Part shown: positions 530 through 33,523 of the stretch, piece by piece | How positions within the stretch are numbered: the stretch's first letter is position 1 | How the letters are laid out: every line of letters begins with the position of its first letter | Origin: a virus | Length of the DNA stretch: 33,523 nucleotides | Virus record (IMG/VR): IMGVR_UViG_3300009505_000044 | Coordinates: 1 to 33,523 of that record | Strand: one strand, 5' to 3' | Notes under the pieces: model-generated | The model's database searches: none | Told to the model about the DNA's origin: nothing | Seen by the model: only the letters and a program-made list of their open reading frames with translations | Program-made: the position numbers and the translations under genes

Positions 530-3500
530 ATGTCTAAATATTTTGATAAATTTGAAAAACACATCAACAACGTAACTGCTAAGTTTATTAACGAGCAGAC
601 TACTGATATGTATAACGTGCGCACTAATCTAAAATCCTTAACCAAAATCGCTAAAAATAAATCGAAAAAATTTAGCTTTAGTGAATTAAAAAGCATTTGG
701 TTTTCTATTAATACTTTGGGAACCAAGGCTGCTGGGAAGTTAGTGGGTGTAGAAAATTTACCAGTGCTAGCTGATTGGGTTACAGTATCACAAGCTGCAC
801 TTATCGACGATTATCGCAGCCCGAGTAAAGCGAACATGAGTAGTGCCGGTGTTGATAATGTAGCTGACTATGTGCAAAAAGTATACGGCGGCGATGGAAA
901 CTTTGCTTTTAAAGAAATCAATCGTTACGCAAAAACTATAGTAGATAATATAGGCCAAGGTTTACAAGGAAAACAATTAGGCACAGTTGACACTACAAAA
1001 GATGTTGGCATAGGCTTTACTCTGCAACAGCTCGGGGACGCTATTGACATTGCTGACGGTAAAGATATTAGTGTTGTTGATGCGCTTAGCCAAGTAACAG
1101 GCAAAGAACTTACTGCCGCAGACGTCGAAACGGCCTTTCAAAAAGTTAGTGAACTAGGTAACCAAATAGATGATGACCTTAAACGCTTAACAGATGCAGC
1201 CGAAGAAAAAATAGTAAATATAAAGAAAACGTATAGAGATGCACCAGAGTATACTACTACGTTTAACAAACGTGTATTGAACAGTTTATCAATGTCGGAT
1301 ATATTTAGAACAGACACCGGCTCTAGAACTGTTGCGTATGCAGAATTGAAGAAATGGGCAACTACTGGCAACCCTTCCTGGCAACAGCAATTAGTTAGTT
1401 TAATTCCTACTATCGATGCTGTTGCTCCTATTATTAATAGCCTCAAAGGTAAGCAAAAAGATTTTGAGCTAACGCAGGAACAAAGAGCATTGATTCAAGC
1501 TGCTAAACAAGAAGCAGCTATACGTGATGCTATACGCCAAAAAGCAAAAGATAAAGTAGCTAGCGATGACGCAGCAAGCCAAGAAACAGATATTAGAAAC
1601 GCTATACGTCAAGCAGCTCAAGAAGCTGCGGACAGAAAAAGAGCAGGCGAAGAAGAAGCAGCTAATAGAAACTTTATACGAGCCGAAGCAAAGCGCATTG
1701 CTACCGAAAACAAACTAGCTGCTGAACAAGAAAAAGCTGTACGTAACGCAATACGTAACGCAGCTAAAAACGTAGGAGCAAGCGCTATAGCAGCAAGAGA
1801 TCAACACTTGTACGGCGCTGACGACGATACACCATATGACCAAAGATACGACGCAGACACAGATCAAGACTTCTTAGGACCAGATGACGACAAGCCATTT
1901 GATCCACGTTATGATGTAGATAAGGATCAAGACTTCTTAGGACCAGATGACGACAAGCCATTTGATCCACGTTATGATGTAGATAAAGATCAAGACTTCT
2001 TAGGCGATCCCGAAGTAGGGCCAGAAGGCGGTACAGGCGTTGGACGATCTGACCAACGTGGCGGCTACTTAGAAATGGCTAGACGTGAGTTTGATAAAGC
2101 GTTAGCTAACACTAAAGGACCTACAAGAGGCGGCGGCGCACTAGAAACAGCACGTCGTATTTACGATACTGCGATTAAAAATACACCCGGCCCTACAAGA
2201 GGCAACTACGGCGCTAGGCTAGAAATGTCTAGGCGTGCGTATTTACAAGCGATTAAAAACACACTAGATACTGGTCGCGGCCCTGGATTTAAAGAAATGG
2301 CACGCCGTGCTTTTGACACTGCTCTTAAAAATACACTAGACACTGGTAGAGGCTCCGGCGAGAATGAAGTAGATCGTCGTTACATTGACAGTTACATTGA
2401 CAATGTAAGAAGTGATATAAACAAGTGGATGGCAACAAACCGAGTACCTAATGACAGCACTGGTGGATTTGTAGGTGCAGCATCTCCCGATGCTGACAAT
2501 AGTGCTCGAGATCAAGTTGACGCAGCAATAGCAGTTCATAAAGAAATCGTTAATATGTTTGATGCTGAACAAGGCGAAGCTCGTGCTAGTTACATTTTGC
2601 GTCTAACCAGAGAGATTGACAACACTGAGAGTGAATTGTTAAATCCAGAAAACAGAGAAAAATATATAAACAATCTTAAAGAAACTTATGTTAAGTACAA
2701 AGCACAAGAAGATTTCATTAACAGCCAAAGCGGTAATTCAACTTTATATTATGGATTTAATCCTAGAAATCTAAACTCGATAGCAGTTACCGGCGGCGAA
2801 CCTGATTTTAATCTTTCTGATAGAATACTTTACTCTCTAAGTCTACTAACACAAGTAGTACCGGATGCTATTCAAAAGCATTCAAAAGAGCAAAGTGTAA
2901 TTGATGCTAATGAGCCGGTTGATCTTGACGTAGATCAACTAGATCAACAAGCAGCAAACCGCACTGCTAAGTTAGAGCAAGCAGTCCAAGAACTAGATGA
3001 TCAAGGCGCAGCAAGAGACGCTGCTGGCGAAGAAGAACTAGCTAACCGTGATGAAATAAGAGCCGACGCTCAAGAGACTGCTAAGAGAGAACAAGAGCGT
3101 CGCAGAATTATCTCCGGCCAGCTGAAAACATTCAAAGAGATCGAAGCCGAAACCACAAGCAACGAGGCAGCGTTTGACGCAGTAATCGAACCACTTAACG
3201 TACTAGTAAGCAATATTGAATCAGACGTAGCTGGAATCGAGATTGACGAGTTAGCTAACATGCAAATAATACTTGACGCTGAATTCAGCGAAAAAGCAAA
3301 AATTATTAGTAATGCTATTACCGGCAAGGAAGAGTTTGAAGAACTTGACGAGAGACTATACAAGGTTATTATCGAAAGACAAAAGCAGTTTATTGAAAAA
3401 ATCAATACAACTTTTGATAGACTCACAGCAGAAGCACAGAGCGAAGACGCTGACATTGATTCAGACTACATATTTGGTGTAGATACTACTAGACTAAGAG

Positions 3501-8893: not shown

Positions 8894-10582
8894 ATGGAAA
8901 ACGTTAACCCATTTAAAATTTTCATTGGCTGGGACAGGCGTGAAGATATTGCTTACCAAGTTGCTAAGAAGAGTATCGAAGATCGTGCTTCGATACCAGT
9001 AGAGATTATTCCTCTGAAGCAGCACAAATTAAGAGACACAGGTATATACACTCGTCCTACAGATAAACTAGCAAGTACTGAATTTACTTTTACAAGATAT
9101 CTAGTACCTTATCTTGCTGACTACGAAGGTTGGGCATTGTTTATTGACTGTGATTTTTTATTCCTAGATGACGTAGCAAAGCTTGTAGAACAGATTGACG
9201 ATAGCTATGCTATTATGTGTGCGCAGCATCAGTACACTCCTAAGCCAGGTCGAAAGATGGACGGAAAACTCCAAACTATCTACCCAAAGAAAAATTGGTC
9301 AAGTATGATGCTGATTAACTGCGAGCATCCGAAAAATATAAATGAACTAACTTTAAATAATGTTAATAATGAAAACCTCAACGGTGCACACTTCCACAGA
9401 TTTTCTTGGTTGCCAGATAGCAGTATTGGACAAATAAGTCACGAATGGAATTGGTTAGTTGGTTGGTATAATGAGCCAGACGACGGAGCGCCGAAAGCAC
9501 TCCACTACACAGAAGGTGGGCCGTGGTTTGATAACTACAAGGATTGTGAATACGCAGCTGAATGGAATAGCGTAGCTATTGACTTTTATAAAAGCGAACT
9601 TGACCAAAGAAATAGTTCTATACGAGACCTTAGGAATCGTGATGTAACAATATCTGATATTAACTATTCTGATGATATCAAAGCACAAGTGACTGAGTTT
9701 ACACACAGCTTAGTTGACCCAGAAAATAAATTTTTTAAAAAAAAAGTAAATGAAGATATGAAAAAGAAAAGTAAAGTTGCTGCTATTAACACTAGCGAAA
9801 TTAACCTAACGCATAAAGGCGAGACGTTAGAATACGACGGTGTGTTATCTTCGCTAGCCTTTGGAAGTAACGGATACATAAGCAGTTGGGAAGACGAAAA
9901 AGAATCAGACAACGCACTGATTATTAGAGGTGTAGGTAAAAAATCAAGAGAAGCAATTCAGCATTGCTGGAACACTAATAGAGATTTCTATTACATCGAC
10001 ACTGGGTATTTTGGAAATCCTAAACTAAAAATGTATCATAGATTAACTAAAAATAATTTACAGTTTAGTAGTGAGCTTATTGATAGACCAGATGATAGAC
10101 TAGTGCGCACTAACACTAAAATTAAAAAGCATAACCCTGGGTCAAAAATTTTAATATGTCCGCCCAGTGATAAAGTTATGATGATTTTTGACATGCCTGA
10201 TGCAAAAACTTGGACACAACATATTGTAGAAGAAATAAAAAAATATACAGACAGGCCGATCGAAGTGAGACTGAAACCTGAGTCACGGACAGAACGACAA
10301 AATTCTAATACAATACAAGATGCGTTAGCTGACGCTCATTGCCTTGTAACTTACAATAGTATAGCAGCAACAGAAGCTTTGATAAACGGAGTGCCTGCTA
10401 TTGCTTTAGGACCTAATGCTGCTTCTATGTTGTGCCCTAACACTTTAGAAAATATCGATAATATAGAATATCCTGATACATCTTTAATATATTCTTATCT
10501 TTCAAACTTAGCATACAATCAGTTTACTGAGCGAGAATTACGTAACGGTACTGCTTGGCGAATAGTCAATGAAAGTAATTAG
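8894..10582 (+). CDS. Two-domain glycosyltransferase
   Basis: 562 residues with ATG at 8894, chosen over the upstream TTG because it follows the methyltransferase stop by one base. Residues about 1-260 form a GT-A-like domain: KIFIGWDRREDIAY at the start, then ALFIDCDFLFLDD with the DxD metal and sugar-nucleotide motif at D85-D87. Residues about 310-562 form a second domain. It carries ILICPPSD, YTDRPIEVRLKPE and HCLVTYNSIAATEALINGVP, which is the GT-B-like pattern shared with the two neighbouring genes at 10569 and 12354. So this gene is a fusion of a GT-A domain with the block's recurring domain. Acceptor and sugar are unknown. Confidence 0.82.
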   Translation: MENVNPFKIFIGWDRREDIAYQVAKKSIEDRASIPVEIIPLKQHKLRDTGIYTRPTDKLASTEFTFTRYLVPYLADYEGWALFIDCDFLFLDDVAKLVEQIDDSYAIMCAQHQYTPKPGRKMDGKLQTIYPKKNWSSMMLINCEHPKNINELTLNNVNNENLNGAHFHRFSWLPDSSIGQISHEWNWLVGWYNEPDDGAPKALHYTEGGPWFDNYKDCEYAAEWNSVAIDFYKSELDQRNSSIRDLRNRDVTISDINYSDDIKAQVTEFTHSLVDPENKFFKKKVNEDMKKKSKVAAINTSEINLTHKGETLEYDGVLSSLAFGSNGYISSWEDEKESDNALIIRGVGKKSREAIQHCWNTNRDFYYIDTGYFGNPKLKMYHRLTKNNLQFSSELIDRPDDRLVRTNTKIKKHNPGSKILICPPSDKVMMIFDMPDAKTWTQHIVEEIKKYTDRPIEVRLKPESRTERQNSNTIQDALADAHCLVTYNSIAATEALINGVPAIALGPNAASMLCPNTLENIDNIEYPDTSLIYSYLSNLAYNQFTERELRNGTAWRIVNESN

Positions 10583-29840: not shown

Positions 29841-30083
29841 ATGAAAAGTCAAACTACACAATTTCTCGAATGGGCACAGATGCTAACTGGCTGTTCAGCT
29901 GCACTGATTGTAAGCTTGAACTTGGGCAACACTTGGGTATTCTGGGCTATGGTGCTGTTTGTGATCAAAGACTCAATGATGGGTGTGTTTGCTACACTAA
30001 ACAGTTACCCTGGCATCATAACAAGCTCAGTGATATATGTGATCATTGATCTAATTGGAGTATGGCGTTGGCTACCAGTATAG
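29841..30083 (+). CDS. Small multi-pass membrane protein
   Basis: 80 residues from ATG 29841. Hydrophobic spans at about 16-28, 30-50 and 57-76 (WVFWAMVLFVIKDSMMGVFA, GIITSSVIYVIIDLIGVWRW). The YPGIITSSVIYVIIDLIGVW end has a loose likeness to the C-termini of PnuC-type transporters, and the size also fits a holin. Neither is secure. It overlaps the next gene by 22 bases. Confidence 0.6.
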   Translation: MKSQTTQFLEWAQMLTGCSAALIVSLNLGNTWVFWAMVLFVIKDSMMGVFATLNSYPGIITSSVIYVIIDLIGVWRWLPV

Positions 30084-30373
30084 TACACTATACTAAAACT
30101 GTGCGTTCAGTATGGCTTGACAACCTAGCAAACACCTACTTGCCGCTAGAACCAGATGACGACTGTGCTGACAGTATGATTGACCTTATACCCGCTACAA
30201 CACAAGGTGGTAAACAGGTAGCTGAGTATTTGGCATGGCTGCGAGAGAACGGTGAATACACAGTCACGAGCACTGAGTACACTCGTGTATACATTACTGA
30301 ACAACAGATGACTTACGTACTGATGCGTTGGAACGGTATACGATACGCTACTGACAAATGGAAGACTGTATAA
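30062..30373 (+). CDS. Hypothetical protein
   Basis: 103 residues, soluble and mixed alpha/beta, with no recognised domain (AEYLAWLRENGEYTVTSTEY..VYITEQQMTYVLMRWNGI). GGAG lies close to the ATG at 30062 and a TTG at 30068 has better spacing, so the start is uncertain by two codons. Followed by strong hairpins at 30382-30455 that probably end its message. Confidence 0.6.
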   Translation: MALATSIVHYTKTVRSVWLDNLANTYLPLEPDDDCADSMIDLIPATTQGGKQVAEYLAWLRENGEYTVTSTEYTRVYITEQQMTYVLMRWNGIRYATDKWKTV

Positions 30374-30502: not shown

Positions 30503-30701
30503 CCCGAAATGGGTCTTACAGGGTAAAAAAATTTGCTGCGCAAAAAATTCTAGGGTAGTACTTATAGATTCGGGGTGGTGATTTTGTATCGGTGTATTTT
30601 AAATAAGCTTGTAATAGAGTTTTAGAGTTTTAAAAATTTTAAAGTTTTAGAGAAAAAGGCTTGTAGCTGTAGTATATAAAATTTTATGTATATTATATAC
30701 G

Positions 30702-30733
30702 CCCCCGCCCCCTGGTACACTATGCCCCGCCCC
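30702..30733 (-). other. Four C-runs: potential G-quadruplex on the minus strand
   Basis: C-runs of 5, 5, 4 and 4 at 30702-30706, 30708-30712, 30725-30728 and 30730-30733, so the minus strand carries G5-G5 and G4-G4 pairs separated by single bases and one 12-base loop. Unusual in an AT-rich region and just before the early array. Confidence 0.45.
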
Positions 30734-30790
30734 GAGAGAAAAATATTTTCAGCAAGCTAATTTTTTTTTAAAAAAGATTGATTTTTTCTC

Positions 30791-30819
30791 TTGACTTCTC
30801 AGCTCACACGTACTATATT
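30791..30819 (+). promoter_or_regulatory. Early promoter 1 (type II)
   Basis: TTGACT, 17-base spacer, TATATT. Preceded by CAGCAAGCTAA (30750-30760) and an A/T dyad. Leader ATAACAACACAGCAGAGAGCA leads to the ATG at 30855. Confidence 0.8.
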
Positions 30820-30854
30820 ATATACATAACAACACAGCAGAGAGCACGCACACT

Positions 30855-31142
30855 ATGAGAACTATTGCAGCTACTACTAAAACAGCCCGCAACTATGTAC
30901 GTAACACCCTTGCTACCAGCGACGTACGAGTAAGCGGCTCGTGGACTGACAACAACAGCATGCCTGGGCATCGCAACGTTACGTTCCGTGTTGAGTATGA
31001 CAAGCAGAGTGACATGAATGATGCGTTCAAACATATCGCAATGGGTCTTGCGTTTGAACGCATCCCTGTAAAGTATCGGGCTATCGGCTCCCGCGGCAAT
31101 GCTGCTTACTTGCGCCTCAATCGTGTGCCCTTCGAGGGCTAA
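30855..31142 (+). CDS. Early-cassette hypothetical protein 1
   Basis: 95 residues, basic. Rich in Arg and Asn with RNYVRNTLATSDVRVSGSWT, FRVEYDKQSDMNDAFKH and FERIPVKYRAIGSRGNAAYL. No domain is recognised. The purine-rich leader AGAGAG is a little far from the ATG. Bracketed by its own promoter and a strong terminator, it is the first of the array of short early genes, so a host-directed role is inferred. Confidence 0.68.
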   Translation: MRTIAATTKTARNYVRNTLATSDVRVSGSWTDNNSMPGHRNVTFRVEYDKQSDMNDAFKHIAMGLAFERIPVKYRAIGSRGNAAYLRLNRVPFEG

Positions 31143-31154
31143 GCTACAGTAGGC

Positions 31155-31181
31155 AAGGGGGAGTAAACAGCACTCCCCCTT
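31155..31181 (+). terminator. Terminator of early cassette 1
   Basis: AAGGGGGAGT / ACTCCCCCTT, a 10-bp perfect stem with a 7-base loop. The conserved box TTCAGCACGCTTAA begins at its 3' end (31180). Confidence 0.85.
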
Positions 31182-31222
31182 CAGCACGCTTAACGTTTAT
31201 CTAAAAGTTTAAACGATAGTTG

Positions 31223-31258
31223 TTGACTCTTGTATCAATAGAGTTTATATTAATAAAC
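31223..31258 (+). promoter_or_regulatory. Early promoter 2 (type I) with dyad over the -10
   Basis: TTGACT (31223), 17-base spacer, TATATT (31246-31251). GTTTAT / ATAAAC (31243-31258) form an inverted repeat across the -10 and start point, a plausible operator. Confidence 0.8.
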
Positions 31259-31282
31259 ATAACAGCAAAGAGAGCACACACC

Positions 31283-31477
31283 ATGTCCGAGTTAATGTCC
31301 GAGTTTATTGTTGGTTTTCTTTTGGTTGCGTGGGTAGCATACGGTGTATACACCTTAGCCCGGCGCATAATTGATCCTGTGTATGCGGCTCGTAAGGATC
31401 GTGAGCATGTGAAGCGTCAACGTGACACTATTCGAAATGCTGATTACGAGCGGGCAAGGGATTATCGTCGTAAGTAA
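31283..31477 (+). CDS. Early-cassette membrane protein
   Basis: 64 residues from ATG 31283; the longer frame starting at 31220 merely translates the promoter repeat. One membrane span (about 7-26: EFIVGFLLVAWVAYGVYTLA) is followed by a very basic, charged tail (RKDREHVKRQRDTIRNADYE). Expected to sit in the inner membrane with the tail in the cytoplasm. The GAGAG leader serves the start. Function unknown; small membrane proteins in T4-like early regions often target host metabolism or exclusion. Confidence 0.7.
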   Translation: MSELMSEFIVGFLLVAWVAYGVYTLARRIIDPVYAARKDREHVKRQRDTIRNADYERARDYRRK

Positions 31478-31486
31478 GTTGTGAAC

Positions 31487-31508
31487 AAAGGGTGCTTCGG
31501 TGCCCTTT
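31487..31508 (+). terminator. Terminator of early cassette 2
   Basis: AAAGGGTGC-TTCG-GTGCCCTTT, a stem with a C(UUCG)G tetraloop, merging at its 3' end into TTTAGCACGCTTAA, the conserved box variant. Confidence 0.75.
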
Positions 31509-31548
31509 AGCACGCTTAACGTTTATCTAAAAGTTTATACGATAGTTG

Positions 31549-31577
31549 TTGACTCTTGTATCAATAGAGTCTATATT
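31549..31577 (+). promoter_or_regulatory. Early promoter 3 (type I)
   Basis: TTGACT (31549), 17-base spacer, TATATT (31572-31577). Nearly identical to promoter 2: 31508-31600 matches 31182-31274 with three differences in 93 bases. Confidence 0.8.
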
Positions 31578-31608
31578 AATAAACATAACAGCAAAGAGAG
31601 TAGCACCT

Positions 31609-31950
31609 ATGAACAACGACATGACGCAAGCACAAGTAGAAGCAATCCTCAACGAAGCTCATCAAGCAGCGGAACATGAGGTCAACGCCCTGCACGAAAA
31701 ACACGGTGACTGTTGGGGAGCTTGCGGATTCTCCTGGGTACACATCAGCGGAGTAAAAGGCAACTCCAAGTTGGGCCGTAAGCTCAAGGCTGCTGAAGTA
31801 CGCCAAGACTACACTCGCACATTCCAAGTATGGAACCCGGGCGGCTACGGTGGACAGAACATTGAGATTAAAGAAGCAGGCGCACAAGCATATGCCAAAG
31901 TGCTCAAGAGCTACGGCTTTACTGCTTACGCTGGCTCACGTATGGATTAA
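31609..31950 (+). CDS. Early-cassette protein with CGFSWVHI motif
   Basis: 113 residues from ATG 31609; the upstream extension is promoter repeat. The pattern HGDCWGACGFSWVHI..GNSKLGRKLKAAE and the terminal GFTAYAGSRMD resembles a widely scattered family of small phage proteins of unknown function, which I recognise by pattern only. The Cys and His residues could bind a metal, but no clear site is visible. Promoter and terminator bracket it. Confidence 0.72.
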   Translation: MNNDMTQAQVEAILNEAHQAAEHEVNALHEKHGDCWGACGFSWVHISGVKGNSKLGRKLKAAEVRQDYTRTFQVWNPGGYGGQNIEIKEAGAQAYAKVLKSYGFTAYAGSRMD

Positions 31951-31963
31951 CGATTGCTGTGTT

Positions 31964-31986
31964 GGGGAGTTGCTTAGGCGCTCCCC
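31964..31986 (+). terminator. Terminator of early cassette 3
   Basis: GGGGAG / CTCCCC with partial inner pairing, 3' side leading into TTCAGCAAGCTTAA (31987-32000). Confidence 0.75.
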
Positions 31987-32000
31987 TTCAGCAAGCTTAA

Positions 32001-32018
32001 ATCTTTTTTAAAAAAGAT
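32001..32018. repeat. 18-bp AT palindrome upstream of promoter 4
   Basis: ATCTTTTTTAAAAAAGAT, perfectly symmetric, 11 bases before the -35. A copy with a one-base insertion lies at 32579-32597 before promoter 5, and a degenerate one precedes promoter 1. May be an UP element or binding site. Confidence 0.7.
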
Positions 32019-32029
32019 GATATTAATGG

Positions 32030-32058
32030 TTGACTTCTGAGCTCACACGCACTATATT
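32030..32058 (+). promoter_or_regulatory. Early promoter 4 (type II)
   Basis: TTGACT (32030), 17-base spacer, TATATT (32053-32058). Leader AACAACGCAAAGAGG precedes the ATG at 32088. Confidence 0.8.
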
Positions 32059-32087
32059 ATATATATAACAACGCAAAGAGGCACATG

Positions 32088-32561
32088 ATGACTGTAATGA
32101 CTCCCCAGGACTACTACGCAGATTTTATGGCTATCCGCGGTATGCGCTCTCCTACTGCCAAGCGAGTTCGTATGTTGACTGAACTGCTCAGCGGCTACAA
32201 GGACAACTGGATTGTCACAGGTGTAACCAAAGAAGCGCTCAGAGTGTTTGAACAGAACGACTTCCGCAAAGTATCACGTATGGGCATCAACCGCAGTCAC
32301 CTTGTAGATCGTCACAAGACCTACACTGCTATGATCGAAGGTCCAGAGATGGGTGCAGAGGAATGGTGGCAGTTCTACCGTGACAACGACAAGACTGTTC
32401 TTGCTACCAGCTCCGAGAACATGACCAATAACTTCAGTCACGCCTACACTGTAGACACTGAACTGGGTCTGTTCCGTACACGAGGATTTGCTTGGACGCA
32501 CAACAAGGCAGAAGCCGAGTTCCTTGAACAGATGTACAACGCCTTCATGCTCATCGAGTAG
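32088..32561 (+). CDS. Early-cassette hypothetical protein
   Basis: 157 residues. The second of two ATG codons (32085 and 32088) is better spaced from GAGG. The protein is helical and charged with YYADFMAIRGMRSPTAKRVR, FEQNDFRKVSRMGINRSHLV, EEWWQFYRDND and FAWTHNKAEAEFLEQMYNAF. No domain is recognised. It is the longest cassette gene in the array. Unlike its neighbours, no GC-rich hairpin follows it, so its message may run into the next cassette. Confidence 0.7.
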   Translation: MTVMTPQDYYADFMAIRGMRSPTAKRVRMLTELLSGYKDNWIVTGVTKEALRVFEQNDFRKVSRMGINRSHLVDRHKTYTAMIEGPEMGAEEWWQFYRDNDKTVLATSSENMTNNFSHAYTVDTELGLFRTRGFAWTHNKAEAEFLEQMYNAFMLIE

Positions 32562-32608
32562 GCGTTAAACAAGCTTAAATCTTTTTTCAAAAAAGATCAC
32601 TTTTTCGG

Positions 32609-32637
32609 TTGACTTCTGATCCAAGACACACTATATT
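32609..32637 (+). promoter_or_regulatory. Early promoter 5 (type II)
   Basis: TTGACT (32609), 17-base spacer, TATATT (32632-32637). Preceded by AAGCTTAA and the AT palindrome at 32579-32597. Confidence 0.78.
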
Positions 32638-32666
32638 AAGTATATAACAACAGCAAGGAATACACG

Positions 32667-32750
32667 ATGTCTTTGGAAAACTTTTTCTTCGCAGTAGCAG
32701 GTACAGCGTTTATGGGTATTGTTGTAGTAGCGTTCTTTACCATTCTGTAA
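32667..32750 (+). CDS. 27-residue membrane peptide
   Basis: ATG 32667 after AAGGAA. The product (MSLENFFFAVAGTAFMGIVV and VAFFTIL) is almost a single membrane span. Being framed by its own promoter and a textbook terminator makes it a real gene in spite of its size. A small membrane-acting early peptide; function unknown. Confidence 0.72.
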   Translation: MSLENFFFAVAGTAFMGIVVVAFFTIL

Positions 32751-32775
32751 CCAGACACTTCTCTCTCCCAAAACT

Positions 32776-32800
32776 AAGGACCTCCGGGTCCTTTCTTTTT
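32776..32800 (+). terminator. Terminator of the 27-residue gene
   Basis: AAGGACC-TCCG-GGTCCTT followed by TCTTTTT, a classic rho-independent terminator. The box TTCAGCACGCTTAA (32799-32812) follows. Confidence 0.88.
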
Positions 32801-32842
32801 CAGCACGCTTAATCTTTCATCTAAAAGTTTATACGATAGTTG

Positions 32843-32870
32843 TTGACAATCGCATGTAAGGTGCTATTGT
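32843..32870 (+). promoter_or_regulatory. Early promoter 6 (type I upstream, diverged core)
   Basis: TTGACA (32843), 16-base spacer, TATTGT (32865-32870). The upstream block CTAAAAGTTTATACGATAG is that of promoters 2 and 3, but the spacer and -10 differ, so part of the unit has been exchanged. Confidence 0.7.
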
Positions 32871-32898
32871 AAAAATATAAACAGCAAAGGAGCACAAG

Positions 32899-33087
32899 AT
32901 GAAAACCTTCGTATACGTAGTAACTATCGCTTCCACCGAATGGTCCGACATCGCCCGTGTTTTCACTAACGAAGCAGACGCAGACGCTTTCATCCAATAC
33001 TGTAAGGAAGTAGACCCAAACCCTAAATGGGAATACGAAAAGCATCACAAAGAGATCGACGGAGATCCACAAGATACATTTATCTAA
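32899..33087 (+). CDS. Early-cassette hypothetical protein
   Basis: 62 residues with AAAGGAG upstream. The sequence MKTFVYVVTIASTEWSDIAR then FTNEADADAFIQYCKEVDPN suggests a beta strand pair with a helix, acidic overall. No family recognised. Framed by promoter and terminator. Confidence 0.68.
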   Translation: MKTFVYVVTIASTEWSDIARVFTNEADADAFIQYCKEVDPNPKWEYEKHHKEIDGDPQDTFI

Positions 33088-33093
33088 CAAATA

Positions 33094-33114
33094 GGGGGAG
33101 CTAACCACTCCCCC
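33094..33114 (+). terminator. Terminator of the 62-residue gene
   Basis: GGGGGAG-CTAACCA-CTCCCCC, directly followed by TTCAGCAAGCTTAA (33115-33128). Confidence 0.85.
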
Positions 33115-33146
33115 TTCAGCAAGCTTAACTTTTTTTGATTTTTCGG

Positions 33147-33175
33147 TTGACAAACCTAGTGCGACGCACTATATT
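33147..33175 (+). promoter_or_regulatory. Early promoter 7 (type II)
   Basis: TTGACA (33147), 17-base spacer, TATATT (33170-33175), leader AACAACACAGCAAAACGGAG to the ATG at 33210. Confidence 0.8.
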
Positions 33176-33209
33176 AAGTACATAACAACACAGCAAAACG
33201 GAGCACAAA

Positions 33210-33428
33210 ATGCTTGTTACACGTACGCACCCGTTTACGGGCAAAGTTATTACTCGCAAAGTTAGCTGCACGCAAGCGCAATACGATTTATGGCAATCGG
33301 GTGTGCTAATACAAGATGCTATGCCCGGCGTGTCTATACACGATCGCGAGTTTATGCTTAGAGGGATCGACGACTGGGACCAAGTGCTAGACGACTACGA
33401 GATTAACGCAGCAACACGACAAGGCTAA
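33210..33428 (+). CDS. Early-cassette protein of a widespread small family
   Basis: 72 residues with CGGAG upstream. The pattern TRTHPFTGKVITRKV, AQYDLWQSGVLIQDAMPGVS and DREFMLRGIDDWDQVLDDYE resembles small phage and plasmid proteins having TGK..., IQ-x-xMP and REF-x-x-xGI motifs, seen widely with no known role. Recognised by pattern only. Framed by its own promoter and terminator. Confidence 0.72.
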   Translation: MLVTRTHPFTGKVITRKVSCTQAQYDLWQSGVLIQDAMPGVSIHDREFMLRGIDDWDQVLDDYEINAATRQG

Positions 33429-33436
33429 TCTGCTAT

Positions 33437-33459
33437 GGGGCTAGTAATGCGCTAGCCCC
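33437..33459 (+). terminator. Terminator of the 72-residue gene
   Basis: GGGGCTAG-TAATGCG-CTAGCCCC, followed by TTCAGCAAGCTTAA (33460-33473). Confidence 0.85.
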
Positions 33460-33482
33460 TTCAGCAAGCTTAATCTTTTCGG

Positions 33483-33511
33483 TTGACATTTGGTTCAAGA
33501 CCTACTATATA
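33483..33511 (+). promoter_or_regulatory. Early promoter 8 at the window end
   Basis: TTGACA (33483), 17-base spacer, TATATA (33506-33511). Its gene lies past the window. It shows that the array continues. Confidence 0.75.
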
Positions 33512-33523
33512 TAATACATAACA

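Follow-up and report, generated by a model that had tools for sequence, protein, structure and literature searches.

How might a phage gain, lose or replace small genes one at a time while the neighbors of each continue to be expressed? This question is raised by the final 2.8 kb of IMGVR_UViG_3300009505_000044, a complete viral contig of 33,523 nucleotides (nt) that was analyzed at its full length (hereafter the window), wherein eight promoters on the + strand are arrayed with seven complete small open reading frames (ORFs) of 27–158 amino acids (aa). With good confidence, this array can be seen as a hypervariable and probably early region of an uncultured jumbo phage, made up of stand-alone cassettes whose cargo would be exchanged via repeated flanks. 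Each unit can be parsed in the same order—the hairpin of the preceding gene, a 14-nt box, an A/T-rich block (a probable UP element), a strong sigma-70 promoter, a short leader that includes the ribosome site and one small gene. The host RNA polymerase would read each such unit independently, and a cassette could therefore be gained, lost or replaced while its neighbors stay expressed. The repeated flanks, being common to the units of one genome and to a close relative, would allow cargo to be exchanged between them, with homologous recombination as the simplest route for the exchange step.

The anatomy of the units is directly visible in the sequence. The original prediction had posited eight promoter units within 2.8 kb, and these are indeed found, all on the + strand (−35 positions in the table below), with zero promoters on the − strand of 30601–33523. 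The strict form TTGAC-N17/18-TATATT occurs seven times in the 33.5-kb window, six times in the array and once elsewhere, whereas dinucleotide shuffles would give 0.08; a looser scan for generic sigma-70 promoters returns eight against 6.4, a count not above chance. Going by sequence match, each intergenic unit of the array has a strong sigma-70-like promoter. The proposed uniformity of TTGAC-N17-TATATT holds, with a spacer of 17 or 18 nt, for the six strict promoters of the array, but units 6 and 8 deviate at the −10 element, with TATTGT after a 16-nt spacer in the former and TATATA in the latter. Likewise, one short gene per promoter was found for the seven complete genes, whereas that of promoter 8 lies beyond the contig end. 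The 14-nt box that had been suggested, TTCAGCAMGCTTAA, begins 23–44 nt upstream of the −35 in all eight units, but is exact only in five of them, with one mismatch in unit 3 and two in units 1 and 5. The flanks, which had been called identical, reach 97% identity over 98 nt between 31177–31274 and 31503–31600 (cassettes 2 and 3, with unrelated genes downstream), but over the whole array they fall into two interleaved classes, namely those of the promoters at 31223, 31549 and 32843 (ATCTAAAAGTTTAWACGATAGTTG) and those of the other five.

A direct case for exchange comes from a related virus, IMGVR_UViG_3300023175_002928 (L288), which was found by scanning with just the box in an extended form and has three exact copies. 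(A separate scan of viral contigs with the box plus TTGAC pattern gave six matches that were judged to be due to chance.) In the orientation of the window, L288 displays the end of the DnaB gene (81% nucleotide identity), a homolog of the gene at 30062–30373, a conserved noncoding element (81%) and promoter 1, beyond which lie five complete cassettes and then a sixth promoter. Its flanks share with the window the arrangement hairpin-TTCAGCAAGCTTAA-TTGAC, and from box to −35 the flank of window cassette 8 is 93% identical to those of four L288 cassettes (97% over 34 nt with blastn). The cargo of L288, comprising three hydrophobic peptides (31, 34 and 33 aa), an HNH_3-like protein and an AAA ATPase, is different: none of the five complete cargo genes significantly matches the window cargo (best blastp E 0.02), and this comparison of the same locus gave the pattern anticipated from the cassette idea, with flanks kept and cargo changed. 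The first two L288 cassettes represent a duplicated cassette with related cargo. With shared switches and an entirely different set of genes at one locus in two related viruses, the array would seem to act as a rack on which small genes are swapped.

Comparable patterns emerge from a wider sample, consisting of 80 related contigs obtained with a DnaB profile and 80 further loci obtained by a search with the array AAA ATPase. Several of the DnaB relatives carry comparable arrays roughly 3–22 kb downstream of DnaB, reaching about 18 promoters in 12 kb in one of them (G005), and in the 80 ATPase loci 352 promoters lie on the gene strand (+) as against 14 on the opposite one (−). The AAA-type ATPase itself (e.g., L187 8240–9259 and L288 247–1251 on the − strand) is a well-conserved protein of about 340 aa with a weak AAA_16 match and recurs as array cargo in hundreds of viral contigs. 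The arrays of the relatives share 30 cargo families in shuffled order: just 37 of 148 adjacencies are kept, the mean Kendall tau is 0.28 and the cargo order of most phage pairs is indistinguishable from random. A second direct case is furnished by the pair L234 and L237, in which the flanks are nearly identical up to the −35 and sequence similarity is regained within the following promoter; between these conserved promoters, one phage has three genes with three promoters and the other a single unrelated gene. Across the phage pairs compared, homology blocks begin at promoters in both members in 27 of 88 instances, with 0.8 expected for random points. Taken together, the flanks and cargo of L288, the replacement in L234/L237 and the common pool in near-random order among relatives all speak for the cassette idea.

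Several observations weigh against this picture. The window and L288 contigs both end within the array, and some cargo could hence be shared further along. The conserved promoters themselves partly account for the homology blocks that start at promoters. A few arrays are collinear (G005 and G035 keep six of six adjacencies); where orthologs of both neighbors are present, 48% of promoter junctions and 62% of the other junctions retain the adjacency, with per-pair sign counts of 77 versus 65 phage pairs, and the promoter junctions are no strong hot spots. In the wider family, flanks are barely more alike within than between phages. With two direct cases, L288 and L234/L237, alongside a weak adjacency test, cassette exchange may be taken as well supported, while a family-wide preference for promoter junctions is only suggestive.

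The wider relatives also differ in anatomy, with a GC hairpin ahead of about 18% of promoters (10% in a control inside genes), a median gap of 17 nt from the stop codon to the −35 and two genes per promoter on average, with two or more genes often driven by one promoter. Thus, most relatives have a promoter without a hairpin, and the strict hairpin-promoter-single-gene unit is limited to the subgroup of the window. These short gaps, few hairpins and multiple genes per promoter, together with synteny breaks that are only weakly enriched at promoter junctions, would fit an ordinary dense early region with nested, overlapping transcripts, in which flank repeats stem from the constraints on promoters and ribosome sites and cargo changes by general accessory-gene turnover that is not promoted by the flanks. 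Such constraints sit poorly with the 14-nt box and the A/T blocks, which repeat in the window and L288 though they lie outside the hexamers and the ribosome site, with the 97% identity of the 98-nt flanks before unrelated genes, and with the L234/L237 replacement that is bounded by conserved flanks, and this interpretation is accordingly held to be rather unlikely.

The GC-rich hairpins that had been predicted at nearly every gene end are present at six of the seven in the window, with stems of 7–10 pairs, most of which fold better than shuffles, and at all five gene ends of L288. The gene at 32085–32561 has no hairpin at its end, and nothing comparable lies upstream of unit 1. As just one of the six window stems (32776–32793) matches the consensus of stem plus T run, they are termed hairpins here and not terminators; termination of transcription may nonetheless be their role. 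In the other five, (TT)CAGCA follows in place of a direct T run and the stem continues into the box, whose first bases partly lengthen it. This structure lends some plausibility to hairpin plus box acting in the processing or stability of RNA, or else serving as the place where a phage factor is loaded, on transcripts that cross several cassettes. Such a role is a conceivable though not a favored one, given that a T run is present at one hairpin each in the window and in L288 (the latter in the gap 9884–10053) and that a T-rich stretch is found slightly further downstream of the other stems.

The box invites yet another comparison. Integron arrays are rows of single-gene units whose boundaries repeat in sequence and whose cargo can be exchanged, and the compact box at the unit boundaries, as well as the HNH_3-like protein among the L288 cargo, might point to site-specific capture, either by a phage or host recombinase acting at the box in an integron-like manner or by a cargo HNH endonuclease that spreads cassettes. 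Unlike integron cassettes, each window unit has its own promoter; no integrase was detected among the scanned window proteins, the window being only part of the genome, and no site of the attC type was identified in the array, where the box is 14 nt long. Moreover, units 1 and 5 have degenerate versions of the box, and in the wider relatives, where cargo is shuffled all the same, the box was not detected as a part of the arrays. Capture of this kind is therefore regarded as quite improbable, and exchange via the repeated flanks is the preferred explanation.

A closer parallel might be struck with the promoter-early stem-loops (PeSLs), also known as 'mobile regulatory cassettes' of T4-type phages, which PMC4503421, citing Arbiol et al. 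2010 (doi 10.1093/gbe/evq006) and Comeau et al. 2014 (doi 10.1093/gbe/evu129), credits with mediating the shuffling of genes in T4-like phages. PeSLs likewise combine a promoter, early in their case, with a stem-loop between accessory genes, densely placed in intensely shuffled regions. In the window, a stem-loop lies immediately upstream of the promoter at six of seven gene ends, as it does at five of five in L288 and at about 18% of promoters in the wider relatives; the array occupies a variable small-gene region of a phage with T4-like core genes, and the L288 locus and L234/L237 display motif-bounded modular exchange in close relatives. The window array may thus work in the same way as PeSLs, the likeness described here being one of organization. 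There are differences: the lineage of the window is another one (jumbo, near Phosso and Atu_ph07 by UvsW), it adds the 14-nt box, most of its hairpins have no T run and most promoters of the relatives have no hairpin. The gene-swap principle is known from T4-like phages, whereas the array of the window, and the wide occurrence of such arrays in its lineage, seem to be novel. PeSL shuffling, a principle of T4-type phages, would thereby be extended to a jumbo-phage lineage that is widespread, which also suggests how small genes can move without loss of expression.

Small, strongly promoted early genes also make up host-takeover modules such as that of the Bacillus phage SPO1, an unrelated phage in which small genes are similarly clustered behind strong host-type promoters; the SPO1 module is not known as a cargo-shuffling array with repeated flanks. 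The cargo genes of the jumbo phages considered here plausibly constitute their host-directed and anti-defense repertoire. The promoter flank and the array ATPase together offer a sequence handle for harvesting hundreds of small cargo genes, and flank-dependent exchange would be directly testable if a relative were cultured.

The identity of the phage is indicated by a T4-like replication set among the window proteins, namely a single-stranded DNA-binding protein (gp32), UvsX, UvsW, a primase and a DnaB-type helicase. For UvsW, the closest counterparts are those of the jumbo phages Phosso, Atu_ph07 and PA5oct; between the recombinase and DnaB, the genes are ordered much as in Phosso. The cultured Phosso and Atu_ph07 have four and seven strict promoters per genome, respectively, and no such array by the strict pattern; a similarity search with the array DNA against annotated phages gave no match. 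Downstream of DnaB, and at the array edge where an array is seen, lies the noncoding element of about 95–110 nt with the pattern CCGAAATGGGT..AAAAAAATT..GCGCAAAAAATT..AAGTACTTACAGA..GGTGGTGATTTT, for which profile matches were obtained in more than 30 related phages (including L288, L108, L127, L131, L132, L139, L154 and L176), some with two copies. It has no match in Rfam and no consensus RNA structure in RNAalifold, and is possibly an origin or another DNA site. Its orientation is constant, while the array, directed towards DnaB in the other relatives, is directed away from it in the window and in L288, a configuration that is best read as an inversion of the array in the window/L288 subgroup.

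Some promoters feature an inverted repeat of promoter-specific sequence within the −35/−10 spacer, e.g., TTGACATAGCAGGTTTTACCTGCTATAAT, as seen at L187 5761, 9740, 10149 and 12770, L206 6941, L222 1259, L273 1274 and window 33147. In an independent set of 299 promoters, those with arms of at least 6 number 18 as against 7.5 (maximum 13), an enrichment over shuffles and half-swaps, and they are commoner where the promoter directly follows the stop codon of the gene before it (p 0.012). This may be a stem-loop folded into the promoter. A more speculative synthesis, offered tentatively, is that a widespread jumbo-phage clade keeps an anchored platform for gene exchange, in which the noncoding element of about 100 nt marks the edge, homogenized flanks let a cassette fit any slot, cargo including an HNH nuclease circulates via a common pool and some promoters have the spacer stem-loop.

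Table. Features of the array and its boundary in the window.
Feature	Position	Strand	Remarks
Conserved noncoding element, array boundary	30505..30613	+	just upstream of cassette 1; 81% identity in L288
Cassette 1 flank	30748..30854	+	box (2 mismatches), T/A-rich block, TTGACT-17-TATATT (−35 30791), leader; aligns with L288 promoter 1
Cassette 1 gene	30855..31142	+	95 aa, isoelectric point (pI) 10.4, no family
Hairpin after cassette 1	31155..31181	+	GC-rich, without direct T run; z −3.5
Cassette 2 flank	31180..31282	+	box, class-A A/T block, −35 31223, leader
Cassette 2 gene	31283..31477	+	64 aa, one membrane span plus basic tail
Hairpin after cassette 2	31487..31508	+	GC-rich, TTCG loop
Cassette 3 flank	31506..31608	+	box (1 mismatch), class-A block, −35 31549, leader
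Cassette 3 gene	31609..31950	+	113 aa, phrog_22149 (family F1), recurrent array cargo
Hairpin after cassette 3	31964..31986	+	GC-rich; z −3.3
Cassette 4 flank	31987..32084	+	box, class-B block, −35 32030, leader
Cassette 4 gene	32085..32561	+	158 aa, no relatives found, no terminal hairpin
Cassette 5 flank	32565..32666	+	degenerate box, class-B block, −35 32609, leader
Cassette 5 gene	32667..32750	+	27 aa, one membrane span
Hairpin after cassette 5	32776..32793	+	followed by TCTTTTT; sole standard intrinsic terminator
Cassette 6 flank	32799..32898	+	box, class-A block, −35 32843 (TTGACA-16-TATTGT), leader
Cassette 6 gene	32899..33087	+	62 aa, acidic
Hairpin after cassette 6	33093..33115	+	GC-rich
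Cassette 7 flank	33115..33209	+	box, T-rich block, −35 33147, leader
Cassette 7 gene	33210..33428	+	72 aa, phrog_20898 (family F22)
Hairpin after cassette 7	33437..33459	+	GC-rich; z −3.1
Cassette 8 flank	33460..33523	+	box, T-rich block, −35 33483; gene past contig end

The cargo of the window agrees with the mixture that had been foreseen, with one membrane span each in the products of 64 and 27 aa, basic proteins of pI 10.4 and 10.0, acidic ones of pI 4.1–5.0, and two genes from scattered phage families, phrog_22149 and phrog_20898, both PHROG families of unknown function. Family searches, Pfam (no match above cut-off) and PADLOC (no defense family) assigned a known function to none of the cargo, and neither the 158-aa cargo protein nor a 434-aa protein encoded upstream has relatives among viral contigs; action on the host, up to its takeover, may nevertheless be envisaged for these small proteins. 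The phrog_22149 protein has a confidently predicted fold (predicted local distance difference test, pLDDT, 93.5) that matches none of the solved structures, its matches in the fold search being uncharacterized phage proteins only. It is found near the boundary element in about 20 relatives and also in cultured Roseobacter, Pelagibacter and Caulobacter phages, where it lies inside tightly packed gene runs; the gene is therefore not bound to cassettes. Separately, by reading of its translation, the gene at 2646–3179 (−) in another array-bearing relative, L044, codes for a putative heme oxygenase.

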